Below are positions 13,803 through 15,524 of a stretch of 32,233 bases of DNA, piece after piece. A model generated the notes under the pieces. That model did not search any database and was not told where the DNA came from. It saw only the letters and a list, made by a program, of their open reading frames with translations. The DNA lies in NCBI GenBank assembly GCA_003138975.1, contig PLHQ01000037.1, forward strand, positions 35,418 to 67,650, written 5' to 3'. The translations under genes were made by a program, and so were the position numbers. Position 1 is the first letter of the stretch. Each line of letters starts with the position of its first letter. The DNA comes from Acidobacteriaceae bacterium. GTDB taxonomy: Bacteria > Acidobacteriota > Terriglobia > Terriglobales > Acidobacteriaceae.

Positions 13803-14233
13803 TATCTCCGAAACGTGAATCGGGAGGCGCTCCTCCTCGCGAAGGTTGGATACTTTACGATGGTGGATGCGGGTTCTGCTTTCGTTGGGTCCACTTCTGG
13901 AAGAAGGTAGTTGAACGGAGGGGCTTTGCAATTAAAGATCTGCAGTCCGCTACTGTCGACGGCGGTTTGAGAATTCCACAAGAGAACCTGCTGGACGACA
14001 TACGAGTTTTGACGCGTACCGGAAAATTGGAATCGGGTGCTAACGCGTATCTCTATGTGGCACGGCGAATCTGGTGGGCATGGCCTTTCTACGCAATCTT
14101 CCGTTCGCCAGGTTCTAATTGGATGCTTGGGTGGGGTTATCGCTGGTTTAATCGAAATCGGTACCGAATCTCTCGGCATTGTCCGCTACCGCAACGAGCC
14201 GGGGATGGGCACGTTGCGAAAAACGGCATGTGA
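13799..14233 (+). CDS. thiol-disulfide oxidoreductase DCC family protein (DUF393)
   Basis: A 144-residue protein with the family motif YDGGCGFCFRW (Asp21, Cys24, Cys27), a C-x2-C redox pair after a short beta strand. C-terminal segments such as RIWWAWPFYAIFRSPG and YRWFNRNRYRIS are typical of DUF393. The family is predicted to be thioredoxin-like; substrates are unknown. The ATG at 13799 overlaps the DUF2071 stop by four bases. No signal peptide is seen, so it is probably cytoplasmic or membrane-associated through its Trp-rich segment. Confidence 0.87.
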   Translation: MISPKRESGGAPPREGWILYDGGCGFCFRWVHFWKKVVERRGFAIKDLQSATVDGGLRIPQENLLDDIRVLTRTGKLESGANAYLYVARRIWWAWPFYAIFRSPGSNWMLGWGYRWFNRNRYRISRHCPLPQRAGDGHVAKNGM

Positions 14234-14270
14234 ACCTCTCTAGCCACATCATCGGCCTTACAATGCTCTC

Positions 14271-15524
14271 TTGCGAATCCTGATCTCAGCCGGCGAAGCT
14301 TCCGGGGAAATGTATGGCGCACAGCTCATCGAAGCTCTCCACCGGGCTGCCGATCGCAATGCCGCGGAGCTTCGCTCCGCGGGACAACCGGGGGCGGCTG
14401 TCCCCACACAAGCATCTCAATCAGGACCAGCATGTCGCTCCACACGAGCATCGCAACTTGAATTCTTCGGCGTTGGCGGAGAGCGCATGCGGGCTGGGGG
14501 CTGCGACATTGTGGTTGATGCGAAGGACCTCTCCGTCGTCGGCATCACGGAAATTCTCAGTCATCTTCCTAAGATCTATGGCCGCTACCGGCTCCTGATT
14601 AAGGAAGCCGACAGGCGCAAACCTGATCTCGCCATCGTCATCGACTCGCCCGCGTTCAACTGGCGCGTAGCGCGGCAGTTGAAGAAACGCGGTATTCCCG
14701 TGGTTTACTACGTCGCGCCGCAGTTCTGGGCATGGCGACAAGGACGGGTTCGGTTGCTCCGCGACTACATCGATAAGGCGTTGGTGATTTTTCCGTTTGA
14801 GGAGAAGTTCTATCGCGACCGGGGAGTGGATGCGATCTTCGTGGGCCATCCCCTCGCTGACTTGCCGCAGCCGGCAATCGGGCGCAGCGACTATGCCGTG
14901 CAATTTCATCTCGATCCAGCCAAACCCTGGATCACACTCATGCCCGGCAGCCGCGTCAAGGAAGTAAGCATGAATTTGCCGACTATGCTGGAAGCGGCTG
15001 CCCAGCTCGGCCGCGAGTACGAATTTCTACTGCCGGTCGCACCCACACTCGACCGCGCCTTCCTGAAGAGCTTAATTGACCGACACGGCATCACACTTGT
15101 GCCCGAATCCCTGCCTGCCCTTTGGCATTCGCGCGCCGGCATCGTCGCCAGCGGCACTGCGACAGTGGAGGCCGCGATGATGCGCACTCCGTTCGTGATG
15201 GTCTACCGCGTTTCGCCTCTCACTTATATGCTGGGCAAGCCGCGAGTGAAGGTCCCGCACTTTGCCATGGTTAACCTGATCGCCGGGGAACAAGTCGTCC
15301 CGGAGCTGGTGCAACAAAACTTTACAGCTTCGAATGTGGTCGCCCAAGTACAGGATATCCTCCCTGACGGTGCCGCACGCACGCGAATGGTGGAGGGTCT
15401 GGCTCGAGTGAAAGCCAAGCTCCGCGCGCCTGAGAGTGCCATGGAAGGTCCGGCACAACACCCGGCCGACCGCGCCGCCACAATTATTTGGTCGATCGGA
15501 AATTCGATAAGATCTCACAGCTAG
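14271..15524 (+). CDS. lpxB: lipid-A-disaccharide synthase with an in-frame insertion
   Basis: A 417-residue GT19 glycosyltransferase. It contains ILISAGEASGEMYGAQLIEAL, FFGVGGERMRAGG, VVGITEILSHLPKIY, YYVAPQFWAWRQGRV, VGHPLADLP, LMPGSRVKEV, and SGTATVEAAMMRTPFVMVYR. LpxB joins UDP-2,3-diacylglucosamine and lipid X to form the lipid A disaccharide at the inner membrane. The start is TTG at 14271, because the conserved N-terminus begins there and no in-frame ATG lies nearby. Between EALHRA and LEFFGVGG there are about 32 extra residues (about 27-62), rich in Ala, Gln, Ser and Arg. They are encoded by a palindromic repeat element (14362-14456). The reading frame is otherwise intact, so the enzyme is probably functional. 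Confidence 0.93.
   Translation: MRILISAGEASGEMYGAQLIEALHRAADRNAAELRSAGQPGAAVPTQASQSGPACRSTRASQLEFFGVGGERMRAGGCDIVVDAKDLSVVGITEILSHLPKIYGRYRLLIKEADRRKPDLAIVIDSPAFNWRVARQLKKRGIPVVYYVAPQFWAWRQGRVRLLRDYIDKALVIFPFEEKFYRDRGVDAIFVGHPLADLPQPAIGRSDYAVQFHLDPAKPWITLMPGSRVKEVSMNLPTMLEAAAQLGREYEFLLPVAPTLDRAFLKSLIDRHGITLVPESLPALWHSRAGIVASGTATVEAAMMRTPFVMVYRVSPLTYMLGKPRVKVPHFAMVNLIAGEQVVPELVQQNFTASNVVAQVQDILPDGAARTRMVEGLARVKAKLRAPESAMEGPAQHPADRAATIIWSIGNSIRSHS
14362..14456 (+). repeat. palindromic element inserted in lpxB
   Basis: Hairpin 1 is a perfect 9-bp stem CCGCGGAGC (14362-14370) and GCTCCGCGG (14374-14382) with loop TTC. Hairpin 2 overlaps its end: GGGACA (14381-14386) and TGTCCC (14399-14404), extended inside by CC/GG. 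These are followed by a 17-base imperfect direct repeat (14404-14420 and 14440-14456, 15 of 17 identical, 36-base period). The whole lies where LpxB homologs have only a short loop. It resembles REP-like palindromic elements that insert in coding sequences. No second copy is seen in this window. Confidence 0.65.

Follow-up and report, generated by a model that had tools for sequence, protein, structure and literature searches.

A REP element family of one acidobacterial genus and its in-frame copies in a loop of lpxB

REPs with GTAG/CGTC tags are described in PMC3733652 (2013) as short tagged palindromes present in many copies, some of them intragenic, including copies in repair genes and tRNA synthetases. 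The same source records the GTGG variant of the tag in Opitutus terrae and a REP at about the same site in recB of two Xanthomonas species. TnpA-REP systems or REPtrons, as outlined in PMC8266576, group together a tyrosine transposase gene and nearby tagged hairpins, the tag lying 5' of the stem. The Rickettsia RPE, as reviewed in PMC2229807, are palindromes 105-146 bp long; numerous conserved genes of a single lineage contain them in frame and translate them, and a guanylate kinase with an RPE insert was translated and active, with altered substrate affinity. Translated intragenic REPs and palindromes are already known in other lineages, and the unusual part of the case described here is recurrence at one site across a genus. 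Our search of the open-licence literature found no study of REPs in this genus.

The element treated here lies in lpxB of an Acidobacteriaceae bacterium. Like the REPs described in PMC3733652, it is a short tagged palindrome, multicopy and partly intragenic; it differs from them in that GTGG is the usual tag, in a second hairpin that covaries, and in that one site is filled in most sampled species, in both orientations. Its family, like the RPE, enters many conserved genes in frame (14 genes). Unlike the RPE of PMC2229807, it is about 50 bp long, bears a REP tag and has a transposase partner in relatives; membership in the RPE was considered and rejected, as its model spans 54 positions and its host is an acidobacterium, against Rickettsia palindromes of 105-146 bp. 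As in the REPtrons of PMC8266576, tagged hairpins stand beside a transposase gene in relatives, where activity is putative; unlike them, the genome studied here retains hairpins without an intact transposase.

The window, by which we mean the whole stretch of DNA analysed (32,233 nucleotides), contains at 14271..15524 on the + strand an open reading frame for lipid-A-disaccharide synthase, LpxB (417 aa; Pfam LpxB, E 1.7e-87; TTG start as listed). lpxB is in general an essential gene; here it gives a single match in the window's genome, and its product fits its family over the full length. When aligned with six empty and three forward-insert lpxB genes, the whole insert covers 14346..14453 (+). 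Residues 26-61 (36 residues) replace 3 residues of the empty LpxB of relatives and therefore 33 are extra, giving a loop of 42 residues against 9 in empty LpxB; a preliminary description had recognized the in-frame insert correctly and put it at about 32 residues. The pre-insertion site is blurred in this alignment, and the 5' stretch of the insert, outside the element proper, is common to forward lpxB copies. MITEs are marked by terminal inverted repeats and a target-site duplication; the blurring of the site obscures any such duplication, and an inverted pair of 10 bases (90%, spaced by 131 bases) that flanks the insert, within the lpxB coding sequence and outside the element, is taken as chance.

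The element proper, in forward orientation at 14358..14411 (+), encodes AELRSAGQPGAAVPT and is the sole match within the window at E<=10 (59.6 bits, E 1.2e-11) to model R1, which has 54 positions and was built without the window's lpxB copy. It is made up of the two adjoining hairpins that had been described beforehand: hairpin 1, CCGCGGAGC-TTC-GCTCCGCGG, at 14362..14382 (+) with 9 perfect base pairs, and hairpin 2, GGGACAACCG-GGGG-CGGCTGTCCC, at 14381..14404 (+) with 6 bp, one A.C mismatch and 3 bp. The mismatch of the window's copy falls within codon CAA (Gln), and the consensus letter gives CAG, likewise Gln, so that the broken pair is a synonymous position. Across the family the stem of hairpin 2 is nearly invariant, whereas hairpin 1 is variable but covarying. 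The GTGG tag, a variant of the REP tag GTAG, lies 5' of hairpin 2 on the - strand at 14404..14407 and is exact in 21/27 model copies, before the conserved stem on the minus strand. A tandem tail at 14404..14457 (+) is built of roughly three units of 18 bases, or six codons, with decay in the middle unit; its self-identity reaches 74% for a period of 36 and 51% for one of 18, against a next best of 40% among periods 6-39. The 17-base direct repeat reported earlier (15/17; 14404-14420 and 14440-14456, start-to-start 36) exists but belongs to this local tandem tail and not to the element. When as many as 3 mismatches are allowed, the pattern of hairpin 1 occurs on average 0.01 times in the shuffled window. 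Taken by itself, the RNA fold does not stand out (z -1.69; 14 of 200 shuffles equally good), and the strong evidence is repetition in the genome.

That repetition is extensive. BLAST of a 117-base stretch found 41 places in the genome at E<=10, the lpxB copy included, the better matches spanning query bases 22-63 or so; R1 found 62 matches at E<=1 and 57 at E<=0.01. An alignment of 27 of the 30 fetched copies (all but that in lpxB and the aberrant L024 and L027) has 92% of its cells paired. Over the whole structure, double-sided changes occupy 20 cells compared with 6.8 in shuffles (0/500 as high), and 5 pairs carry such a change compared with 3.1 in shuffles (31/500 as high); in hairpin 1 of these 27 copies, 4 of the 7 pairs are altered on both sides. 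In a survey of 61 genomes under stricter filters, the element is present in all 37 of the genus, with 13 to at least 94 copies each, and in none of the 24 outside it, all of which belong to other families, so that the contrast is one between the genus and other families. By LpxB, the named relatives are Ca. Sulfotelmatobacter and other Acidobacteriota.

The element has the features by which REPs are recognized to differing degrees. It is a short palindrome (20-50 nt being the usual range) in many copies, and a tetranucleotide of the GTAG type precedes the stem as GTGG. A REP-type tyrosine transposase is encountered in relatives and not in the window's genome. As to a mostly extragenic location, 15/57 copies lie in frame in genes; 20/57, namely lpxB and the copies in 19 ORFs, were examined with profiles, and the other 37 may be extragenic or genic. 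Because its copies are dispersed, carry the GTGG tag and flank a REP-type transposase clade in relatives, the element is a new REP family. The preliminary view of a REP-like element of this lineage agrees with the tag variant, the flanking clade and the distribution in 37/37 genomes against 0/24. What would have refuted that view does not hold on either count: the insert is neither universal in LpxB (32 of 83 distinct proteins are empty) nor without other copies in the genome.

REP-type transposases were identified at E<=1e-15 in 18 of 22 relatives of the genus, and R1 was searched in 42 such loci (23 + 19). Strong R1 copies stand on both sides of the transposase gene at L275, L289, L290 and L293, and L300 has one copy behind the gene and a cut one in front; the five proteins form one clade (91/87). 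Weaker flanking copies are found at L291 (47.7 and 33.2 bits), a faint pair at L295 (21 bits), and a copy about 900 bases from the gene at L269. The proteins of L291 and L269 fall outside the clade, and if both are counted the label needs 3 tree changes. The window's genome, 98.6% complete, has no REP-type transposase match at E<=1e-15, the best remnant of the clade's protein being 46 residues (E 0.0017); its REP copies look orphaned, since no intact cognate transposase accompanies them. Five of the 23 genus genomes with REPs have no REP-type transposase at this threshold (G000, which is the window's genome, G006, G008, G021 and G022). Genes matching the Pfam Y1_Tnp model were also considered as partners and rejected: among the best matches per genome, R1 occurs at 1/22 genus loci, more than 1 kb away, neither Y1_Tnp gene of the window's genome has an R1 match nearby, and L032 and L237, the only ones typed, are IS200/IS605, the link to the element having come from the REP-type model. 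Y1 gene number and REP number are correlated over 37 genomes (rho 0.41, p 0.012), and both grow with genome size. Contig 115 of the window's genome holds a Y1-type transposase frame with an internal TAG (L031), with no REP match in the locus.

In-gene copies are not rare: 14 conserved genes contain at least 15 of the 57, each in frame and with the protein family matched on both sides of it. The scan covered 19 ORFs over 19 copies, picked by open frame and codon score, and the count is a lower bound because there are further open frames besides these. The genes are lpxB, metH, an Lhr-type helicase, mutS2, a UbiD-family decarboxylase (two copies), valS, uvrC, selA, a zinc dehydrogenase, a DUF1385 protein, a PAD_porph (agmatine deiminase-like) protein, hydantoinase A, an FtsX/MacB-type permease and a DinG/YoaA-type helicase, the copies in the last two being weak model matches (35 and 30 bits). 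A ROK kinase (L150), whose profile match ends before the insert, probably also carries an in-gene copy; L149, L154, L158 and L178 were left out because a family was lacking or a domain lay on just one side. The in-gene copies do not all use the same reading frame of the element; several are represented. The copy in the zinc dehydrogenase sits between its two domains, and that in valS is within a linker of variable length, which carries a family copy in G007 as well (54.5 bits) and weaker ones in G016 and G021 (34.5 and 28.6 bits); valS genes of other genus loci have different linkers. The two copies in the UbiD-family decarboxylase gene (L155 and L173, contig 104 of the window's genome) are separate and both in frame.

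The lpxB site itself was compared at 110 loci, 30 of them among those listed by a search of the genus and 80 being the best of 179 named loci; 109 are usable and give 83 distinct LpxB. In 32 of these, nine residues separate EAL from FG[VAI]GG and the site is empty, while 51 have a longer stretch there, of up to 73 residues, three of them exceeding nine by only 3-6. Comparison among relatives, as suggested in the preliminary description, accordingly reveals both presence and absence, and the insert fails as a functional domain of LpxB, since the 32 empty proteins do without it. Sorted by hand, 18 of the 51 inserts are forward and 8 reverse; 5 are double, a further 5 have a different hairpin 2 (B), and 15 fall in none of these classes, although some rows are degenerate and at least L135, placed among the last, matches R1. 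Among the genus-search loci 9/30 are empty. In the 47-row LpxB alignment, insertions of at least 5 residues are found at the loop in 26 rows, near residue 270 in 9 + 3 and at the C-terminus in 15. Genomes with an lpxB insert are richer in REPs (median 84, n=21, against 38, n=9; p 0.014), on counts scored up to a ceiling of 94 per genome and by a test that ignores relatedness. On the LpxB tree built without the insert, a weak tree made by a quick method with 43/80 inner branches open, the empty and insert states require 20 changes, at least 5 of them forced by starred branches; shuffled labels require 25.6, so the states cluster somewhat. Sister rows differ: L037 has an insert and L080 is empty (99*), and L071 is forward and L076 reverse (97*).

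Divergence was measured in 12 copies, 11 of the 18 forward ones and L075, with L046, L084, L088, L067, L098, L099, L100, L101 and L107 left out. The mean per-site difference is 0.098 in the element and 0.304 in the 23-base 5' flank; in the rest of the same lpxB genes, fourfold sites differ by 0.531, and the first, second and third codon positions by 0.144, 0.104 and 0.488. Given 0.098 against 0.531, the element should be younger than the species split, exchanged between species or constrained. Within it the third codon position is favoured (0.065/0.043/0.181 at positions 1/2/3). The lpxB frame has a pN/pS of 0.26, compared with 2.4 and 1.1 for the two remaining forward frames; the antisense frame that shares wobble sites gives 0.20, and the remaining antisense frames 2.5 and 1.3. 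A codon-phase permutation gave 0/2000 as extreme when the 12 related lpxB copies were set against 16 of the 27 dispersed copies, those fitting the strict pattern, as some are shifted by hairpin 1 indels; pN/pS by frame is cleaner, yet also comes from related sequences. The codon-position pattern and pN/pS fit translation of the element in lpxB. The earlier proposal that it is translated inside this gene gains support, at the level of sequence, from a frame that stays open, from the codon-phase pattern and from the genome's having just one lpxB match. In an AlphaFold model of LpxB from 47 sequences (mean pLDDT 86.4), a helix at residues 9-37 precedes a strand at 64-69, and residues 42-60 between them are structureless with pLDDT below 50 (44-46 over residues 41-60). 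The insert is thus modelled as extending the loop that links helix 1 with strand 2, which is predicted to be disordered and is presumably on the surface.

We consider it probable, at roughly 0.8, that a REP family of the genus, spread by a transposase, has arrived repeatedly and in both orientations in this loop of lpxB, where it was tolerated and then constrained as protein. A REP-type tyrosine transposase would spread the two-hairpin, GTGG-tagged family, and one copy would have landed in the lpxB frame, in the segment that joins helix 1 to strand 2. Inserts of a length that is a multiple of three and with an open frame would be tolerated because the loop is predicted to be disordered and presumably lies on the surface. 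REPs would have reached the loop more than once, some being lost or exchanged, the inserted sequence would then have come under constraint as protein, and the junction probably grew by 18-base tandem duplication. Family membership, the further in-gene copies, the mixture of empty and filled relatives and the codon-phase pattern are observed directly. Weighing against this account are the lack of an intact cognate transposase in the window's genome, the five genomes of 23 that have REPs but no REP-type transposase at E<=1e-15, the 5' flank common to forward lpxB copies and the weakness of the tree.

Homologous exchange of lpxB among species, rather than repeated transposition into the site, as the main route by which the inserts spread is a serious though not the favoured possibility. 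The forward copies share their 5' flank, so many of them may stem from one event or from interspecies exchange; in the window and in 13 named loci alike, R1 begins to match at 87 bases into lpxB, the element is far less diverged than the fourfold sites of the remaining gene, and insert states are scattered over the LpxB tree. Reverse, double and second-hairpin (B) inserts, however, are not derivable from one forward insert by exchange alone, and the same family is present in other genes. Fresh hits and exchange may both have a share in the filling of the site. A preference of the transposase for a target sequence at the lpxB site, in place of tolerance by the loop, is unlikely: an R1 copy lies at the loop in 30/80 named loci (counted by hand) and elsewhere in lpxB in one (L128, weak), but the few aligned flanking bases of the 27 dispersed copies have no visible conservation and some loop inserts, such as L115 and L129, have no family match. 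Retention of the hairpins as an RNA or DNA signal regulating lpxB is highly improbable; their pairing is conserved family-wide, but 32 of 83 LpxB of relatives are without the insert, the window's copy has its broken pair at a synonymous position and a fold z of only -1.69, and Rfam gives no match at E<=1 within 14200-14600. An assembly or annotation artefact is practically negligible, for although the genome is a draft in 223 contigs, inserts at this site are present in genomes assembled separately, and 109/110 loci are open in frame through it (L136 being cut by a contig end).

Under the reading of repeated arrival and tolerance, the genus offers a natural series in which the same few codons of a conserved enzyme are either empty or hold a forward, a reverse or a double insertion. 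This series makes it testable how REPs enter genes, whether selection keeps several frames of the element open, and whether mobile palindromes, once translated, remain neutral or are incorporated into the working protein. A stronger reading, in which the loop is a standing acceptor of REPs, a variable translated loop under selection that takes protein sequence from them, is doubtful; if it were true, REPs would supply protein sequence to an essential lipid A enzyme, beyond mere tolerance.

Some further copies and palindromes were observed in lpxB genes and elsewhere. L128:3817-3870 is a weak R1 match (31.8 bits) near the second variable region of the gene, at about window residue 270. L039 and L068, which represent the same gene, contain a 5' part of lpxB with the REP tandemly doubled, the first copy leaving the frame and meeting stops. 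The window's genome also has, at 7 places and with up to 2 mismatches, a different palindrome, GGACGGGCGNNNCGCCCGTCC (contigs 12, 107, 108, 215 and others; reversed control 0), which is similar to the hairpin 2 that L037 and L065 have in their lpxB.
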